From the NCBI GenBank assembly GCA_011049115.1, contig DSCM01000090.1:1-59383 (forward strand): a DNA stretch of 59,383 nt. Direction: 5' to 3'. The position numbers were made by a program, and so were the translations under genes. Below, piece after piece: positions 28,520-48,784 of this stretch; positions within the stretch are counted from its first letter, which is position 1, and each line of letters opens with the position of its first letter. This DNA is from Pseudomonadota bacterium. GTDB lineage: Bacteria; Desulfobacterota; Anaeroferrophillalia; Anaeroferrophillales; Tharpellaceae. Under the pieces are notes generated by a model. It made no database searches. It was given only the letters and a program-made list of their open reading frames with translations, and was not told the DNA's origin.

Positions 28520-28548
28520 CTGCGCACAAATTTAAAAGGTTGAGTTCC

Positions 28549-28703
28549 GTACCTTACAGATTATTTTCTGGTTTTTTTCAACATTTTTAACGACAACAAA
28601 AACCAGAAAATGTTCTGATCAGAGCACTTATTGGTGACCAACTGAAATACCTTCAGGTACGGGCCGTGAAGGCCATTTGGGTTGCGGGATTATTCCCGCA
28701 TTA
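28549..28703 (+). repeat. Dispersed structured repeat, copy 1 (155 bp)
   Basis: First unit of a dispersed intergenic element. It opens with GTACCTTACAG, then a hairpin with arms TTTTCTGGTTTTT (28564-28576) and AAAAACCAGAAAA (28598-28610), then CTGATCAGAGCACTTATT, GGGCCGTGAAGGCC and a second hairpin GCGGGATTATTCCCGC, and ends CATTA before the next unit. The stem sequence differs from copy 2 by a compensatory change. Lies between mutS2 and the ABC gene. Confidence 0.85.
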
Positions 28704-28838
28704 GTACCTTACAGGTTATTTTCTTGTTTTTTTCAACAATTTTTTCAACCATAAAAACAAGAAAATGTTCTGATAAGAGTACTTATTTGCGGGCCGTGAA
28801 GGCCCCCATTTGGGGTTGCGGGATTATTCCCGCATCAG
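28704..28838 (+). repeat. Dispersed structured repeat, copy 2 (135 bp)
   Basis: Directly follows copy 1 as a tandem unit. Opens GTACCTTACAG; hairpin arms TTTTCTTGTTTTT (28719-28731) and AAAAACAAGAAAA (28753-28765); then TGATAAGAGTACTTATT, GGGCCGTGAAGGCC and the second hairpin GCGGGATTATTCCCGC. It lacks the GTGACC...AGGTAC segment present in copies 1 and 3, so it is shorter. Confidence 0.85.
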
Positions 28839-28944
28839 GTTTAGTTTACCGGGAAGTGACCGCTCGGGTTACTTCACAAAAGCATCAGAGGTTTCATGCC
28901 GCCGGCTTTGGCCCGCGGTTCCCGAAGTTCTGCTGCCTAAGGTT

Positions 28945-31452
28945 TCAGCCTTTGAGTTCAACCACGGTGATCGCGGCCCCACCGGCGGCGGCCTCAGGAT
29001 GAAAGCATTTTCCGACCCAGGGCAAACCGAGCAGAATTTCCCACACCCCCTGTCGTAAACGACCGGTGCCATGCCCGTGAATGATCTCAACCTGCGTTTC
29101 TCCGGCAAGTACCGCCTGATCAATGAAAGAGGGCAGCAACTCGGCCGCCTCCTCGACCCGCTTGCCGACCAGATTTAAAACCCGGCCGACCCCGGCCGCG
29201 CCCAGACGAGCTTTTCCGGGCTGATCCTCCGCCAAGTCCCCGGCGGCCCGACTGATTTTGACTGCAGTCACGGGAGCCGGTCCGGGTAGATGACGCAGAA
29301 TCCGCTCCGGACTCAAGGTTACGCGCAGATTGCCTTCCAGCAGAACGGTAATTCGTTGCCCGGACTTTTCCAGCGCCAGCACCTGCGCCGGCTTGACCTG
29401 GCCGGCGACCATCACCCGAGCACCAACACCAAGCTTTGACCAGTCAATTTCTGCCCGCTCGCGCTCGACTGCAGGCAGCAGTTGTTCCACCTCAGCGCGC
29501 GTCTGATTAAAAGCGCCGCGCCAGCGGCCGAGACTGATTTCCGGCGGCGGGGCGACGACGGCTGCGCTCGAGAGCTTTTGCCGGGCCGTTTCATAATCAA
29601 TTTTGGCGGCCTCAAGTTCGGCCAGGCGAACCTTGAATTTCTGCCGCGCTTCCCTGACCAGGGCCGCGACCTGCTCGCGGGCCTGGTTTGCGATTTTTTC
29701 CTTTTCCGCTTCAAGCTCCGCCGCCAGACGGGCCTGGCGCTGACCGGCAATCCGGGCCTGTTGTTTAAGCGCCAGCAGTTCCTTCTCATGGCGTTCGCTG
29801 TGGGCGAGACGTTTCTCCAGACGCGCGGCCAGCGTCGCGGTCCGGCTTTCACTTTCGCCGACCAGCTCCCGGGCCCGTTCAATCAACCCTGGCGAAAAAC
29901 CGAGATTGCGAGCGATCAGCAAAGCATTACTTAAACCCGGCACCCCGTACTGAAGATGATAGAGAGGCTTCATGGTCGCCGGATCAAAAGCCACGGCCAC
30001 GCTGCTTACCCCTTCTTCCTCATAGGCATATGATTTGACATCATTGTAATGAGTCGTCACCATAAAGGTCGTGCGCCGGCTTTTAAGTTCATGTAAAATC
30101 GCCTGGGCCAGAGCCGCTCCCTCCTTGGGATCGGTGCCGACCCCAAGCTCATCCAGCAGCACCAGGGAATCGGCATCGGCCTTTTCGAGAATAGCCTTGA
30201 CCGCGAGCAAATGACCGGAAAAGGTGCTGAGCGAAGCCGACAGATCCTGGCCATCGCCGATGGCGGCCAGCACCTGGGAAAACAGCGGCACGCGGCTATC
30301 TGCCGCCACCGGCAGCAGCAAACCACAGCGCGCCATCAGAATGATCAGACCGGCGGTTTTCAGGGTTACGGTCTTGCCGCCGGTATTGGCCCCGGAAATA
30401 ACCAGTCCGTAGCGGGTCGCCGGGAAATCGATGTCGACCGGCACCACCCTCGCGGCCGGCAAGGTGGCCGCGAGCAAGGGATGACGGGCCTGGCGCAGGG
30501 AAAAACCGGCACCACGCGTGGCCGTCAGCTCCGGCGCCTCCGCCCTGATTCGGGCTCCGAAAAGGGCCTTGGCCTGCAGTTGATCCAGCGCGAAAATCTT
30601 TTCCAGGGTAAGCCGAACGGCCGGCGCCGCCTGACGCAGGCGATCGGCGATTCGGCGCAGAATGTTAAGCTCCTCCTGTTTTTCATCCTGCAACAGCAAG
30701 GCCAGGTGGTTGTTCAGGGAAACACTTTCTAGAGGTTCGACAAAAAAGGTCTGCCGCGAGCGGGAATGATCGTGAATGATGCCGGGAATGGCGCCGCGAA
30801 AATTAGTCCGCAAGGGCAGGACATAACGCTGATTGCGGATCGTTACCAGGTGATCCTGAATATAAGACTGCAGCTCCGGATCGCCGAGAACCGCATGCAA
30901 GCGGGAATCGATCTGTTGCCGCGTGGAGGCGATGCGCCGGCGAATTTCCTCCAGTTCCAGACTGGCGCCGTCGAGAATCTCCTCGTCCCCCCCGATGCAA
31001 CTCTCAAGCAGACGCGATAACGGAGCAAAAGATTCAATTCCGTCGAAGGCCTCGGCTAGTGGTTGAAAGAGCCCGGCAACGCGCTCACTGACCTGCTGCC
31101 GATACGCGCCCACCCTTTCCAAACCGGCGAAGGTGGCCGCCACCACCAGCAGTTCGCGGGGCGACAACCAGCTCTCGGGAAAACGAATTTTCTCTAAAAA
31201 AGGATAAAGATCAGCTATCCCGCTCAGTGGCGCCGGTCCGCATTCGCGCACCAGAACCATGCAGGCGGCGGTTTCCTTGAGGCTTACGCGCAACCCGGCC
31301 AACGCCTCCGGTGAAGCCGGATGCAGAGCCAGCAAGGCTTGGCGCCCGGGAAGGGTCAGGGCGTGCTCGGCCACCAGGGCCAGAACCTTATCGAGTTCAA
31401 GAATCCGTGCGGCCGAATTTTCCAGGGCCGACCATGAACCAGCCCGCGACAT
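28945..31452 (-). CDS. mutS2: MutS2 family protein (DNA-binding ATPase with Smr domain)
   Basis: MutS2 proteins bind branched DNA or collided ribosomes and do not act in mismatch repair; they lack the mismatch-recognition domain. The 835 residues have the core/clamp domains, Walker A ISGANTGGKTVTLKTAG, Walker B SLVLLDELGVGTDPKEGAAL, a long charged coiled coil (about 520-620), and a C-terminal Smr nuclease-like domain with VEIIHGHGTGRLRQGVWEIL. I chose ATG 31452, which overlaps the yqeY stop (TGATG); an adjacent TTG would add one residue. The two genes are translationally coupled. Confidence 0.95.
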   Translation of the reverse strand: MSRAGSWSALENSAARILELDKVLALVAEHALTLPGRQALLALHPASPEALAGLRVSLKETAACMVLVRECGPAPLSGIADLYPFLEKIRFPESWLSPRELLVVAATFAGLERVGAYRQQVSERVAGLFQPLAEAFDGIESFAPLSRLLESCIGGDEEILDGASLELEEIRRRIASTRQQIDSRLHAVLGDPELQSYIQDHLVTIRNQRYVLPLRTNFRGAIPGIIHDHSRSRQTFFVEPLESVSLNNHLALLLQDEKQEELNILRRIADRLRQAAPAVRLTLEKIFALDQLQAKALFGARIRAEAPELTATRGAGFSLRQARHPLLAATLPAARVVPVDIDFPATRYGLVISGANTGGKTVTLKTAGLIILMARCGLLLPVAADSRVPLFSQVLAAIGDGQDLSASLSTFSGHLLAVKAILEKADADSLVLLDELGVGTDPKEGAALAQAILHELKSRRTTFMVTTHYNDVKSYAYEEEGVSSVAVAFDPATMKPLYHLQYGVPGLSNALLIARNLGFSPGLIERARELVGESESRTATLAARLEKRLAHSERHEKELLALKQQARIAGQRQARLAAELEAEKEKIANQAREQVAALVREARQKFKVRLAELEAAKIDYETARQKLSSAAVVAPPPEISLGRWRGAFNQTRAEVEQLLPAVERERAEIDWSKLGVGARVMVAGQVKPAQVLALEKSGQRITVLLEGNLRVTLSPERILRHLPGPAPVTAVKISRAAGDLAEDQPGKARLGAAGVGRVLNLVGKRVEEAAELLPSFIDQAVLAGETQVEIIHGHGTGRLRQGVWEILLGLPWVGKCFHPEAAAGGAAITVVELKG

Positions 31453-31895
31453 CAAACCAGGAAGCGCCCAACCAGCTGATTGACCGCCTTGCCGTCCGCC
31501 CGGCCCGCAATTTTCGGCATCAACAGTTTCATGACCTGGCCCATCTCCTTCTTGCTTTCGGCACCGGCCTCGGCAATGGCCTCCTTGACCATCATCTCCA
31601 ATTCGTCCGGACTCAGAGCCTGAGGCAGATAAACCTGTAGATATTCGATCTCGCTGCGCTCCTTGGCCGCCAGATCCTCCCGGCCGCCCCGGGCAAACTG
31701 CTCAGCCGAGTCCTGACGCTGTTTGACCATCCGCGTGAGCACCTGCAGCACATCCTGATCCTCCAGTTCACGCAGACATTCAATGCGCCGGTTCTTTGCC
31801 TCCGCCAGCAACATCCGCAACGCCCCAAGACGAATTTTCTCCTGCTTTTTCATAGCCTCCTTGACGTCGGCCGCAATCCGTTCCAATAAACTCAT
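31452..31895 (-). CDS. YqeY/GatB-like domain protein
   Basis: Protein of 147 residues of the GatB/YqeY family, related to the C-terminal tRNA-interacting domain of the GatB amidotransferase subunit; its free-standing function is not well defined. Family features include the N-terminal helix LLERIAADVKEAMKKQ, EIEYLQVYLPQALSPDELE and the end GRADGKAVNQLVGRFL. It starts at ATG 31895 and its stop overlaps mutS2. In many bacteria yqeY lies near rpsU, dnaG and rpoD; here it is with mutS2. Confidence 0.93.
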   Translation of the reverse strand: MSLLERIAADVKEAMKKQEKIRLGALRMLLAEAKNRRIECLRELEDQDVLQVLTRMVKQRQDSAEQFARGGREDLAAKERSEIEYLQVYLPQALSPDELEMMVKEAIAEAGAESKKEMGQVMKLLMPKIAGRADGKAVNQLVGRFLV

Positions 31896-32070
31896 AGTTT
31901 ATGATCCCCTGATAAAAATTACCCAAACCGGGCGCTTATACCCCACAGCCAAGCCAGGGCCACGCCGACTTTCAGCCCTTATACTGAAAAGCGCTCGTCT
32001 CTGTCAAACCCTGGCTTGGGGTTTTGGACCCAAGCGCACGAAAATTTTCCTTCGAAAAGCAACCCCGAAC

Positions 32071-32099
32071 TTGACAATTTTTTGCCGGCGCTTTACAAG
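32071..32099 (+). promoter_or_regulatory. Probable sigma70-type promoter of the acyl-CoA synthetase gene
   Basis: TTGACA at 32071-32076 and TACAAG at 32094-32099 are separated by 17 bases. This would start transcription near 32106, about 67 bases upstream of the synthetase ATG. Confidence 0.45.
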
Positions 32100-32111
32100 A
32101 CCAGTTAAAAC

Positions 32112-32125
32112 GTTGTTTAAACAAC
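32112..32125. promoter_or_regulatory. Perfect 14-bp palindrome, candidate operator
   Basis: GTTGTTTAAACAAC is a perfect inverted repeat placed just downstream of the predicted transcription start, a position typical of a repressor site. TetR- or GntR-type fatty-acid regulators use such sites, but the regulator is not in the window. Confidence 0.45.
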
Positions 32126-32172
32126 CCTGCCGGCTGATGATTATCAAGAGGCTGAAATCCAAGGAGGAAACC

Positions 32173-33732
32173 ATGCTCAACCTGGCCACCGTTCTCGATT
32201 ACAGCGCCAAGGAATATCCGCAGAAAAACGCGATTATTTTCGGCGCCCAGAAAATCTCCTACGCCCAACTCAATACTTTCTGTAACAAAATCGCCAACGG
32301 CCTGGTCAAAGCCGGCATCCGTCCCGGCGACAAAGTCGCCCTGAGTTGCCCCAACCTGCCCTATTTTCCGATGGCCTATTTCGCCATTCTCAAAAGCGGC
32401 GCCACCGTCGTGCCCCTGAACGTCCTGCTCAAAAGCCGGGAAATCGCCTACCATCTCGCCGACAGCGAGGCCAAGGCCTTTTTCTGTTTTCAGGGCTCGC
32501 CGGAGCTGCCGATGGCGGAAGAGGGTTTCAAGGCTTTTCAACTTACCGACAGCTGCAAGTATTTTTGGATTATGACGGCCGATCCGGCAGCCCCCTCGCC
32601 GATTCCAGGGGCCGAAACCCTGGGCATGATGATGGGTCCGCAGGCGGCCGCTTTTGAAACCGTGCAGACCCGGGCCGATGACACGGCCGTCATTCTTTAC
32701 ACCTCGGGAACCACCGGTTTCCCGAAAGGCGCCGAGCTCTCCCATTCCAACATGATCATGAACGCGACCTGCAGCCGCGACCTGCTGGGTCTGTTATATG
32801 ACGATATTCACGTCATCACCCTGCCCCTGTTTCACTCCTTTGGCCAGACCGTGCAAATGAACGCCGGTTTCATGAAAGGCAACACCATTATCCTGATTGC
32901 CCGCTTTGCTCCAGAAGCGGTTTTTAACGCGATTCAAAACGAGGGCGCCTCGGTTTTTGCCGGAGTGCCGACCATGTACTGGGCCCTGCTGCATTATCAA
33001 GACAAGGAGCGGCGCTTTGATTTCGAAAGAATCAGCCGCACCTTAAGAGTCGGAGCTTCCGGCGGCGCCTCCCTGCCCCTGGAAACCATCAAGGGCATGC
33101 AGGAAAAATATAACATTCCCATCCTCGAAGGCTACGGCCTTTCCGAAACCTGCCCGGTGGCGACCTTCAACCAGATGCACAAACCCTGCAAACCGGGATC
33201 GATCGGTTTTCCGATCTGGGGCATCGAAGTCAAGATCGTCGATCAGCAGAGCCGGGAAGTTCCGATCGGAGAAATCGGCGAGATCGCGATTCGCGGCCAT
33301 AACATCATGAAAGGCTACTACAACAAACCGGAAGCTACCGCGGCCGCCTTCAAAGGCACCTCGTGGTTTCACAGCGGCGATCTCGGGCGCATGGATGAGG
33401 ACGGTTTTTTCTATGTTGTCGACCGGGTCAAGGACATGATCATTCGCGGCGGCTTCAATATCTATCCCCGGGAAATCGAGGAGGTTCTCCTCAGCCATCC
33501 GGCCATCTCCATGGTCGCCGTCATCGGCATCCCCGACGACCATTATGGCGAAGAAATCAAGGCCCTGGTCATCCTGAAAGAAGGTCATACGGCAACCGCC
33601 GAGGAAATTATTTCGTGGTCAAAAGAACAGATGGCCTCCTATAAATATCCGCGCCTGGTCGAGATTCGCGACAGCCTGCCGATGACGGCCACCGGCAAGA
33701 TTCTGAAAAAAGAACTGAAAGCCGAAGCCTGA
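32173..33732 (+). CDS. Long-chain acyl-CoA synthetase (AMP-forming)
   Basis: ANL-superfamily ligase that activates a carboxylic acid through an acyl-adenylate to the CoA thioester. The 519 residues contain the P-loop LYTSGTTGFPKGAELSH (about residue 175), EGYGLSETCPVATFN, the hinge GDLGRMDEDGFFYVVDRVK, the A8 motif IIRGGFNIYPREIEE, and the catalytic Lys segment TATGKILKKEL. The start at 32173 has a perfect AAGGAGG 5 bases upstream; the open frame extends further left without family similarity. It stands alone on the plus strand. A straight-chain fatty acid substrate is most likely, but aromatic acids cannot be excluded. Confidence 0.93.
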   Translation: MLNLATVLDYSAKEYPQKNAIIFGAQKISYAQLNTFCNKIANGLVKAGIRPGDKVALSCPNLPYFPMAYFAILKSGATVVPLNVLLKSREIAYHLADSEAKAFFCFQGSPELPMAEEGFKAFQLTDSCKYFWIMTADPAAPSPIPGAETLGMMMGPQAAAFETVQTRADDTAVILYTSGTTGFPKGAELSHSNMIMNATCSRDLLGLLYDDIHVITLPLFHSFGQTVQMNAGFMKGNTIILIARFAPEAVFNAIQNEGASVFAGVPTMYWALLHYQDKERRFDFERISRTLRVGASGGASLPLETIKGMQEKYNIPILEGYGLSETCPVATFNQMHKPCKPGSIGFPIWGIEVKIVDQQSREVPIGEIGEIAIRGHNIMKGYYNKPEATAAAFKGTSWFHSGDLGRMDEDGFFYVVDRVKDMIIRGGFNIYPREIEEVLLSHPAISMVAVIGIPDDHYGEEIKALVILKEGHTATAEEIISWSKEQMASYKYPRLVEIRDSLPMTATGKILKKELKAEA

Positions 33733-33881
33733 AGCAAGCCTCCCGAGCCTGAGGGCCGGGAAACACCGCGCCGGTACCCGGCCTTCATTCAGACGGTCCG
33801 CGATTACGCCGCCCGACCTGAATGGAGGCCCCTTGATCGCCCGACCAACAACATTGGGCTTGACTAGGCTGGCCGCATTTA

Positions 33882-34108
33882 GTACCTTACAGGCAATTTT
33901 CTCGTTTTTTTAAACCTTTTTTTTCAACCGCAAAAACAAGAAAATGTTAAGTGCTTCACGGATTATCCCCGAGGGGGATGTCCCGATGAAGAAACTTATC
34001 CAGATCTGCTGGGCCTGATAAGAGTACTTATTTGTGACCAAAGGAAATACCTTTAGGTACGGGCCGTGAAAAATCATTTGGGTTGCGGGGTTATTCCCGC
34101 ATTAGTAG
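33882..34108 (+). repeat. Dispersed structured repeat, copy 3 (227 bp, with insertion)
   Basis: Third copy: GTACCTTACAG start, hairpin arms TTTTCTCGTTTTT (33897-33909) and AAAAACAAGAAAA (33932-33944), then about 70 bp not present in copies 1 and 2 (about 33947-34016), then CTGATAAGAGTACTTATTTG, a GTGACC...AGGTAC segment as in copy 1, GGGCCGTGAA, and the second hairpin GCGGGGTTATTCCCGC, ending CATTAGTA. It fills most of the gap between the synthetase and the NYN gene. Confidence 0.85.
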
Positions 34109-34164
34109 GTTTTCGGCTGCACGCGACCAACCATTTCCTTTAGCCTCGGTACCATGGAGAAAGA

Positions 34165-34926
34165 ATGTCGGATCAGGAACATACGCTGGCGGTTTTCATA
34201 GACTTTGAAAATCTGGCCCTGGGTTTTAAAAACCGCAAAAAAAACGAGAAGTTTGAAATCTCTACCATTCTTGCCAGGCTAGTGGAAAAGGGCAAGGTCA
34301 TCGCCAAAAAAGCCTATGCCGACTGGTCCAGCTACGCGAAATACAAGGAAGAGCTTCACAGCGCCGCCATTGAATTGGTTGAAATCCCCAGAAGACGCAT
34401 GACCGGCAAGAACTCAGCCGACATCCGTCTTTGTGTCGATGCCATGGACATGTCCTATTCCAAAGATCACATCGATACCTTTGTCATCGTCTCCGGCGAC
34501 AGCGATTTTTCCCCACTGGTTGCCAAGCTCAAAGAAAACGGCAAGCAGGTCATCGGCATCGGCATGCGCGAAAGCACCTCCAGCCTGTTAAGCGACAACT
34601 GTGACGAATTTATCTTTTATGAAGACCTGGAACAGGCCTCGCAGATGACCCCGCCCCGAATCGCCGGTGACATTCCGGAGGAAAAACGCGACGCCTTTGA
34701 GCTTCTTTTTGAATCGATCACCGCCCTGATGAGGGAAAACAAGGAAATTCTCTGGTCCTCAATGATCAAGCAGACCATGCAGCGTAAACGACCATCCTTT
34801 AACGAGTCAACCCTGGGTTACCGTTCTTTCAGCGAGATGCTGCTCGACTGCGCTAAACGTAATTATCTTCAGGTCAGCAAGGACAGCAAAAGCGGAACCT
34901 TGATTGTTGACGGTTTCGGGAAATAG
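34165..34926 (+). CDS. NYN-domain (PIN-like) ribonuclease with C-terminal OST-HTH/LOTUS domain
   Basis: The N-terminal NYN domain (about residues 8-155) has the acidic active-site residues of PIN-like nucleases: [26 protein letters not shown] and [20 protein letters not shown]. The C-terminal part (about 175-250) matches a winged-helix OST-HTH/LOTUS RNA-binding domain ([20 protein letters not shown], then [19 protein letters not shown]). Such LabA/DUF88-like proteins are predicted RNases in RNA turnover or defence. 253 residues, intact, preceded by GGAGAAAG. The glutamine amidotransferase follows 8 bp downstream. Confidence 0.92.
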
Positions 34927-46925: not shown

Positions 46926-46959
46926 TACTATAATGCGGGCCTTGAACCCGCAACCCAAG
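46926..46959 (-). repeat. Partial copy of the dispersed repeat (34 bp)
   Basis: Reverse-strand fragment containing only the terminal module, reading GGGTTGCGGG, a short loop, CCCGCATTATAGTA. It matches the end of the full units in sequence and hairpin. It lies just upstream of mcmA1. Confidence 0.55.
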
Positions 46960-47130
46960 AATAAACGCCCCGGCAGATTGGCCAATCAGCAACTGCCGGA
47001 GTTAAGTTTTGTTACTTTGCGTCCCCCGGCTTAACCAGGGCATTGCCGCCGGCGCTCAAAACCGTCCCCGCACCGAAACGGGCCGACCTCAAATGTTCTG
47101 GTTTTTGCGACCACATTTCGACCGTGCGGC

Positions 47131-47231
47131 ACTAATGCGGGGCAACCCCAACGCCCTCCACGGCCCGCTAACAAGCACTTTCATCCATTCATTTTCTGGT
47201 GTTTTCAAACCGAAAATCAACGGTTAGGTAC
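47131..47231 (-). repeat. Dispersed structured repeat, copy 4 (diverged)
   Basis: Minus-strand copy that begins at the last base of the carboxyltransferase stop codon with GTACCTAACCG. Then come arms TTTTCGGTTT and ACACCAGAAAATG, AAGTGCTTGTT, GGGCCGTGGAGG, and a terminal hairpin GGGGTTGCCCC followed by GCATTAGT. A further AAAAACCAGAACATTTGA at 47091-47108 could be the trace of another unit. The intergenic region 46914-47230 otherwise holds no gene. Confidence 0.65.
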
Positions 47232-48784
47232 TACAGCGGAATATTTCCATGTTTGCGATAGGGCAGCTGTTCTTCCTTGTCCTGAAGCATCTCCAGGGCC
47301 CGAATGATCTTGATCCGGGTCATCTCAGGTTTGATCACTTCATCGACAAAACCATACGCCGCGGCGCGATAGGGGTTGGCAAAATTGGCCTTGTATTCAT
47401 CAACCAGCTCCTGACGTTTGGCCACCGGATCAGCCGCGCCCTTGAGCTCCTTGTTGAAAACGATATTGACCGCGCCATCCGGACCCATCACCGAATATTC
47501 AGCGGTCGGATAAGCATAATGAATGTCGGCCCCGAGCTGGCGCGAAGACATGGCGCAGTAAGCACCACCAAAGGATTTGCGGGTGGTAATCGTAATTTTC
47601 GGCACCGTAGCTTCGGCATAGGCGAAGATGATCTTGGCCCCGTGGCGAATGATACCGCCAAATTCCTGTCCGGTTCCGGGCAGATAACCGGGCACATCGA
47701 CGAAGGTCAGCAGCGGGATATTGAAACAATCACAGAAACGTATAAAACGGGCGCATTTATCGGAAGCGTTGATATCCAGACAACCGGCCATAAAATTCGG
47801 CTGATTGGCAATAATACCGACGGATTCTCCATTAAAACGCGCAAAACCAATGACTAAATTAGCCGCGTACTGAGGCTGAATCTCCATAAAGTCGCCACGG
47901 TCGGCCACCAGCTTGATAATCTTCTTGATATCATAGGGCCGCCGGGAATCAGCCGGAACCACCTCATTGAGTTCCGGAATCAGTTTCTCGACCTCGCCGT
48001 CAAAATCAAGCAGCGGCGCTTTTTCCCGATTGCTCTGAGGCAGAAAGGAAAGCAGGCGTTTGATCTGATCAATCGTGTCCCGATCATTTTCACCCGCCAT
48101 ATGAGCCACCCCGCTGGTCTTCATATGCGTATTGGCGCCGCCAAGCTTTTCCTGAGTGACATCTTCATTGGTCACGGTCTTGATGACATTAGGACCGGTA
48201 ATGAACATGTAACTGGTATTTTTCGTCATGACGATAAAATCCATGATCGCCGGTGAATACACCGCCCCCCCGGCGCAGGGTCCGAGGATCGCCGCAATCT
48301 GGGGAATCACCCCGGAATAGATGGTATTACGATAAAAGAGTTCGGCGTAACCGCCGAGGCTGGAAACCCCCTCATGGATGCGGGCGCCGCCGGAATCGTT
48401 AAGAGCAATAAAAGGTGCTCCGTTTTTAGCCGCCATGTCGAGAAGCTTACACATCTTCTGAGCGTTGGTCTCGCTCAGTGTGCCGCCGATCGCAGTAAAA
48501 TCCTGAGCACAGGCATAGGTCAGGCGACCGTTTACCCGACCGTAACCGCTGACCACTCCATCACCGACAATCTTGTTTTTCTCCATCCCGAAGTCCGTAC
48601 AGCGATGGGTAACGAACTTGTCGATCTCCTCGAAGGTCCCCTCGTCAAAAAAGTAAAGCATGCGCTCCCGGGCGGTCAGCTTACCGGCCTCATGCTGTTT
48701 GGCGATACGATCGGCACCGCCACTGAGCTCGGCGGCCTGGTTCATTTGCTCCAAACGTTCCAACTGGGCTTCTCTCAAAGACAT
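47231..48784 (-). CDS. Acyl-CoA carboxylase/decarboxylase carboxyltransferase subunit (PccB/MmdA)
   Basis: Carboxyltransferase of 517 residues of the propionyl-CoA carboxylase beta / methylmalonyl-CoA decarboxylase alpha family. CoA- and biotin-binding oxyanion motifs appear in LNDSGGARIHEGVSSLGGYA, LGPCAGGAVYSPAIMDF, and DVPGYLPGTGQEFGGIIRHG with TRKSFGGAYCAM. Next to the mutase genes it suggests a propionyl-CoA/methylmalonyl-CoA step. The biotin carrier and carboxylase or membrane decarboxylase subunits are not in the window, so direction (carboxylase, decarboxylase or transcarboxylase) cannot be read. Confidence 0.93.
   Translation of the reverse strand: MSLREAQLERLEQMNQAAELSGGADRIAKQHEAGKLTARERMLYFFDEGTFEEIDKFVTHRCTDFGMEKNKIVGDGVVSGYGRVNGRLTYACAQDFTAIGGTLSETNAQKMCKLLDMAAKNGAPFIALNDSGGARIHEGVSSLGGYAELFYRNTIYSGVIPQIAAILGPCAGGAVYSPAIMDFIVMTKNTSYMFITGPNVIKTVTNEDVTQEKLGGANTHMKTSGVAHMAGENDRDTIDQIKRLLSFLPQSNREKAPLLDFDGEVEKLIPELNEVVPADSRRPYDIKKIIKLVADRGDFMEIQPQYAANLVIGFARFNGESVGIIANQPNFMAGCLDINASDKCARFIRFCDCFNIPLLTFVDVPGYLPGTGQEFGGIIRHGAKIIFAYAEATVPKITITTRKSFGGAYCAMSSRQLGADIHYAYPTAEYSVMGPDGAVNIVFNKELKGAADPVAKRQELVDEYKANFANPYRAAAYGFVDEVIKPEMTRIKIIRALEMLQDKEEQLPYRKHGNIPL

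Follow-up and report, generated by a model that had tools for sequence, protein, structure and literature searches.

Small interspersed repeats, among them BOX, ERIC, and REP, were recognised long ago, and in many cases it is uncertain where they insert, which strand moves, or what mobilises them. ERIC and other enterobacterial intergenic repeats are folded sequences of about 130 bp that have spread through one order. Enterobacterial intergenic repeat units have been treated in the literature (cf. PMC2759123). BOX repeats, with the organization boxA-boxBn-boxC, are small, gene-less, and intergenic with a high copy number; two constant end modules flank 0 to n tandem, separately folding middle modules, and the repeats nest with other repeats, and have been reported to carry terminal inverted repeats similar to those of ISSpn2 (PMC3049150). 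REPs are defined as palindromes of 20–40 bp tagged by GTAG or CGTC (PMC3733652), and it has been proposed that they might be mobilised in trans by TnpA-REP (PMC8266576). In IS608, imperfect hairpins lie near both ends on one strand, insertion is 3′ of a fixed tetranucleotide, and a guide sequence pairs with the target (PMC5934647).

The window considered here, meaning the whole stretch of DNA that was analysed (59,383 nucleotides of contig DSCM01000090.1), contains repeat units that are almost certainly insertions of a mobile element. The element is non-autonomous, gene-less, and previously unnamed; it is ∼110–250 bases long and inserts at TTAG in one orientation only. Copies and structure were assessed with BLAST, nhmmer profiles, and pair counts. 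A sequence-only reading had placed units at 28549–28703, 28704–28838, and 33882–34108 on the plus strand, and family profiles find all three there, with E ≤ 4e-8 for each module (module A, 5e-14, 5e-17, and 6e-14; module C, 8e-11, 4e-8, and 4e-11, respectively). Its diverged minus-strand unit (47131–47231) has a module A part at 47170–47233, and its fragment at 46926–46959 holds part of a module C at 46931–46960; both matches are weak alone (E 0.03 each) but have the right layout, and decayed copies are the most plausible reading of the two. The features of the window are:

28546..28549, plus strand: left 4-mer of element 1, TCCG (family consensus TTAG)
28550..28700, plus strand: core of element 1, TACCTTACAG...CCCGCA, with one B module (profiles; RNA fold z −5.95 for 28549–28703)
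28635..28659, plus strand: optional B module of element 1, TGACCAACTGAAATACCTTCAGGTA (comparison with other B modules)
28701..28704, plus strand: TTAG common to elements 1 and 2, the right end of 1 and left target of 2
28705..28834, plus strand: core of element 2, without B module (profiles; 98% identical copy at G000:C38:36800-36933)
28704..28782, plus strand: left-end imperfect hairpin (module A) of element 2, GTACCTTACAG...CTGATAAGAGTAC
28791..28805, plus strand: hairpin GGGCC-GTGAA-GGCCC of element 2
28818..28833, plus strand: right-end hairpin of element 2, GCGGGATTATTCCCGC, 1 nt ahead of the right 4-mer
28835..28838, plus strand: right 4-mer of element 2, TCAG (a TTAG variant)
33860..33865, plus strand: TTGACT, a −35-like box in the pre-insertion sequence upstream of the NYN-domain gene (alignment with 7 relatives)
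33879..33882, plus strand: left TTAG (target site) of element 3
33883..34101, plus strand: core of element 3, with extra hairpin insert and B module (fold z −4.35)
33949..34014, plus strand: optional 66-nt insert of element 3, AAGTGCTTCACGG...CTGCTGGGC; it forms two additional hairpins within the left-end structure
34035..34059, plus strand: optional B module of element 3, TGACCAAAGGAAATACCTTTAGGTA
34102..34105, plus strand: right TTAG of element 3
34106..34111, plus strand: TAGGTT, a −10-like box (TAGGCT in most relatives) directly behind element 3
34165..34926, plus strand: NYN-domain protein gene (PF01936, E 4.9e-38), whose presumed promoter holds element 3
46931..46960, minus strand: right-end fragment (E 0.03)
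47131..47233, minus strand: decayed element, its left end abutting the stop codon of the carboxyl-transferase gene at 47231–48784

The description of these repeats as a dispersed, intergenic family is borne out. Two refuting outcomes had been named beforehand, a lack of further copies and stems that change with loss of pairing, and both tests favoured the family. Within the window's own genome (2.64 Mb in 143 contigs), BLAST with two of the units returned 55 and 60 matching pieces, which merge by eye into at least ∼48 distinct places, from 40 scored first-look candidates, and are up to 98% identical to the query; from these copies, the units are far beyond chance. Of the 22 genomes of its order, which span two families, 20 have a match to the consensus unit; in 37 further genomes of the phylum there is none. 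Among the matches listed in a pattern scan of GTDB species genomes, S015_14 stands out above all, and the titles there include Proteobacteria, Deltaproteobacteria, Thermodesulfobacteriota, Desulfobulbaceae, Desulfobacca, and plain bacterium MAGs. Searching a plasmid collection with blastn gave no match. Nor did Rfam 15, at the gathering score or at E up to 0.1, which agrees with the earlier statement that no named family has this layout.

Across 203 distinct units, cut out by their end motifs, length varies from 112 to 251 bp on the plan A–B(0–5)–C, with constant end modules and a variable middle. Both arms of module A are constant and its tip is variable; module B (CGACCATCGGAAGTGCCCTTGGGTG and relatives) is present in 0 to 5 copies per unit; and module C comprises GGGCC-loop-GGCCC, the right-end hairpin GCGGG-loop-CCCGC, and then A and TTAG. 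About a dozen copies in the own genome have the 66-nt extra hairpin pair inside the left-end structure, and hairpin tips, B modules, and loops have been shuffled combinatorially between copies. In the 66-nt insert of element 3 (33949–34014), a GGGGGAT stretch is followed by a short frame, ATGAAGAAACTTATCCAGATCTGCTGGGCCTGA, which is probably just a hairpin arm, as some copies have no ATG or an altered arm (L042, L046). A variant left-end module in genome G006, TAAGTGCTTCACAGGTTCTTTGCC... (L133:2028-2110, L137:4295-4377), resembles the 66-nt insert of own-genome copies, which suggests that modules may recombine between element types.

The clearest evidence of mobility comes from empty sites. Orthologous and nested empty sites show the precise insertion of a mobile element at TTAG; the sequence-only reading was correct that the repeats are structured, dispersed, and unnamed, and missed the mobile insertion with its exact target. 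Upstream of the NYN-domain gene, seven relatives have the orthologous empty site of element 3, reading ...CTTGACTCnGCCGCCnGCATYTAGTAGGCTGA... with small differences among them, and in the window the sequence is ...CTTGACTAGGCTGGCCGCATTTAG-[element]-...GCATTAGTAGGTTTT... TTGACT and TAGGCT flank the insertion point at a promoter-like spacing of 17, and element 3 now separates the −35-like TTGACT from the −10-like box. These motifs would represent a promoter of the NYN-domain gene that carries element 3. The right end of element 3 also places TTGCGG (34083–34088) exactly 17 bp ahead of the −10-like TAGGTT (34106–34111), where it might stand in for the separated −35 box. General targeting of promoters was considered and rejected, as the composition of left flanks has no TTGACA enrichment.

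A second empty site concerns a two-unit array nested in a repeat of ∼240 bp with inverted ends, at CCCA-TTAG-CATTGC. The filled copy (L186) reads GGGAACCCATTAG-[two units]-CATTGC and the empty copy (L178) reads GGGAGCCCA-TTAG-CATTGC, with TCAG in sisters; one sister copy of this host repeat reads CCCATTAGCATTGC and others read CCCATCAGCATTGC. Elements 1 and 2 lie between the genes for MutS2 and an ABC ATPase, and the three relatives with matching gene order at this locus have no element at the junction. The ∼240-bp host repeats form a second family in their own right, with inverted ends GTAACTATTCAGCC...GGCTGAATAGTTAC and many copies in S015_14 (L091:1080-1330, L166:3900-4150, L112:5110-5360, L178:250-500), and they often host nested TTAG elements (L186, L063, L101, L106, L159, L197). 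TTAG elements are also interrupted or truncated by other repeats (L091:6638-7015, in minus orientation; L142:1880-1975; L183:4960-5210; L160:5270-5430), including the GTAACTATTCAGCC family, within the left-end hairpin tip, and a sequence rich in GCGCCTTTGCGTCTTTGCGGG.

The 4-mers around the cores read TCCG/TTAG, TTAG/TCAG, and TTAG/TTAG for elements 1, 2, and 3. Among 219 left ends in the loci examined, 85 are directly behind another right end and 134 are free; TTAG precedes 130 of the 134, in a single orientation. Free right ends are followed by TTAG in 110 of 145 cases and by TCAG in 13, and positions beyond the 4-mer are near random in composition. After insertion, there is one TTAG per side. 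Strand-specific joining would account for such a constant orientation on a 4-mer that is not a palindrome. In head-to-tail arrays, adjoining units have a single TTAG in common, and the tandem unit boundary proposed earlier is this TTAG target of insertion. Array neighbours are 75.8% alike compared with 74.5% for random pairs (p 0.54, 50 pairs). Growth by local duplication was therefore ruled out, and arrays are read as repeated insertion beside old copies. Together with the 85 of 219 left ends found behind a right end, in a sample dominated by the scan pattern and one copy-rich genome, this makes the right end a preferred target.

The structure of the units is conserved as well as their ends. 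The change from CTGG/CCAG to CTTG/CAAG on both arms between copies 1 and 2, reported earlier as a compensatory stem change, is real. The first stem exists and covaries as claimed; it had been stated too short, and the pairing of GTACCTTACAG with CTGATAAGAGTAC continues outside it. The ‘GATAAGAGTACTTATT box’, described as a separate module, is the 3′ arm of the same hairpin. In element 2, the left-end hairpin has a G.T/T.T/T.G internal loop and two bulged A, and in the minimum-energy fold of element 1 the B module (28635..28659) is not isolated as a hairpin of its own.

In 87 aligned A modules, 88.5% of cells in the left-end structure are paired, compared with 86.0% (sd 0.3) after shuffling and at most 58.5% for slid partners. 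Cells changed on both sides number 79 against 41.6 after shuffling, and the covariation score is 0.135 against at most 0.045 for slid partners. Neither the observed paired percentage nor the covariation score was reached in any of 500 shuffles, a control that keeps the relatedness among copies, and it is the slid control and the per-pair data that carry weight. Individual pairs alternate accordingly: in the same 87 modules, pair 6/149 is A-U in 38 and G-C in 27, and pair 25/61 is U-A in 33 and G-C in 28. Pairing is thus kept where stems change, and the suggestion of selection on structure stands. For 109 distinct arm pairs, the wobble position 17-7 exchanges TG, CG, and TA, and position 15-9 exchanges GT, AT, GC, and TA; both positions remain paired solely on the TTAG strand. 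The units fold far better than shuffled sequences as RNA (z −4.4 to −7.0) and as DNA (z −6.4). Since both folds are strong, these data do not separate RNA from single-stranded DNA, and G.T wobble is compatible with both.

The strand that carries TTAG is also biased with respect to base composition. In the first set, it is the G-rich strand at 117 of 177 sites (p 2e-5); where the flanking genes are not co-directional, the count is 31 of 45 (p 0.016). Larger stretches give 24 of 40 in the own genome and 21 of 35 in relatives, which are not significant taken alone. The G-rich strand is usually the leading strand in bacteria, and IS200/IS605 elements insert into the lagging-strand template. If the G-rich strand is the leading strand here, the TTAG strand would be identical to the lagging-strand template, the side used by IS200/IS605, a reading with moderate support.

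Precise, oriented insertion at TTAG, the lack of inverted ends, hairpins at both ends of one strand, and moderate strand bias together lead us to a model, to which we give about an even chance, in which a trans-acting enzyme would move the element by acting on folded single-stranded DNA. The substrate would be the TTAG strand, folded into the conserved left-end hairpin, 0 to 5 optional hairpins, and the right-end hairpin, and recognised by an enzyme supplied in trans. The enzyme may excise this strand, probably as a single-stranded circle whose junction would resemble an array junction, and the excised strand would be joined to the 3′ side of a single-stranded TTAG, with a preference for the lagging-strand template. 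Any effects on host genes, such as that on the presumed promoter of the NYN-domain gene, would be side effects of intergenic landing.

Several enzyme families were considered as the mobiliser. The own genome lacks Y1_Tnp (PF01797), which occurs in 12 of the order's 22 genomes, and the ten best Y1 loci, which include IS200-like and RAYT-like genes, have no clear element copy nearby. Y2 (IS91), RVT_1, and IS110 occur in 7, 9, and 3 of these 22 genomes, respectively, and none of the four families is common to all carriers. Short own-genome matches to RVT_1 and Y2_Tnp (G000:C27:774-1058 and G000:C87:21503-21604) are possibly remnants. There was no autonomous copy among the >400 module matches in the loci examined. 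Seventeen modules are unpaired; the 15 regions read are decayed, truncated, or interrupted by repeats, and in none is a transposase gene enclosed by both ends. Apparent long units were rejected as candidates and are mostly adjoining elements with a degenerate end, or nested insertions. It is conceivable, though on the unlikely side, that the repeats represent an order-specific class in which a novel enzyme joins a folded single strand of DNA or RNA to TTAG, with the right end of the element itself as a strongly preferred target, giving arrays of unlike copies.

Other routes of mobilisation fit parts of this evidence. Small size (112–251 bp) and the presence of empty sites are features tested for a MITE, and a MITE moved by a conventional DDE transposase, duplicating a 4-bp target, would turn the single TTAG of an empty site into one TTAG per side, as in many bacterial MITEs of this type. 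Such an element is very unlikely here, given that terminal inverted repeats are missing (4 of 22 end positions match), that the orientation is fixed (TTAG on the left in 130/134) in a way unexpected from a symmetric DDE synapse, and that wobble pairs specific to one strand are conserved. An RNA intermediate, in which a trans-acting reverse transcriptase copies the folded transcript and inserts the product at TTAG, with template switching shuffling modules and loops, would account for the strong fold, the U.G pairs on one strand, and the combinatorial shuffling, and RVT_1 is found in 9 of 22 genomes of the order, including the own genome as a short match. This we consider unlikely, as RVT_1 is missing from the other 13, many of them copy-rich, and nearly all copies have both ends intact (17 unpaired modules), so that 5′ truncation is not typical. 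Recombinase genes such as XerC/D are present in nearly all bacteria, and a cassette-like element moved by a tyrosine or serine recombinase using a folded strand, as for integron attC sites, agrees with head-to-tail arrays of unlike members with a common core, in which ∼40% of left ends are directly behind another copy. It is nevertheless quite unlikely, because the dispersed, unrelated sites have TTAG alone in common, which does not resemble a recombinase core site, and an integron-type array was not seen.

A role in the host, as a regulatory RNA or an element of transcription or processing kept at its sites by selection, would explain the conserved structure, the intergenic placement, and the position of element 3 between −35-like and −10-like boxes. 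Against this, orientation relative to transcription varies, as the sequence-only reading had noticed: for 133 sites with near neighbours, 55 are sense to co-directional genes, 39 antisense, 21 divergent, and 18 convergent, counts that are approximate because gene context was taken from the longest open frames. Fixed placement for regulation was ruled out on these counts. Sites also differ among relatives, with no shared site at the two loci compared, and nested insertions and decayed copies form the pattern of a mobile element, which leaves selection for a host function highly improbable. The single-strand model remains the reading that we favour. In the TTAG family, empty sites are clear, the target is exact and oriented, copies with covarying structure are numerous across the order, and arrays record successive insertions, so the mode of mobilisation is directly testable; in addition, one insertion is shown inside the presumed promoter of a conserved gene.

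Compared with known systems, the TTAG element resembles IS200/IS605 in its insertion 3′ of a fixed tetranucleotide, a fixed orientation, no inverted ends, and hairpins near both ends. It differs in that the own genome has no Y1 transposase, Y1 genes show no link to copies, and the target is TTAG, not TTAC; the two end hairpins are also unlike each other, in contrast to IS200/IS605 and REP systems. GGTT stands in front of the inner left-end hairpin and of the right-end hairpin alike, and the guide pairing rule of IS608 (PMC5934647) is not followed. The favoured view, by analogy, is that the element would work like IS200/IS605 transposition, a resemblance of mechanism from which family membership does not follow. 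REPs are set apart by the units of at least 112 bp, the three hairpins, and the TTAG ends without a GTAG or CGTC tag. Integron attC cassettes are coding and form arrays next to an integrase gene; the TTAG copies carry no gene. ERIC, compared by description, is likewise a folded intergenic repeat of ∼130 bp found across one order, whereas the present element has three separate hairpins rather than one palindrome, a TTAG target, and modular length. Pneumococcal BOX shares the plan of constant ends and a variable middle, a resemblance of plan only with a repeat of a different phylum, together with small size, the lack of genes, intergenic position, high copy number, and nesting with other repeats. 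BOX is reported to have terminal inverted repeats and the TTAG element has none; for the latter, both the target and the empty sites could be resolved, and whole units often stand in head-to-tail arrays.
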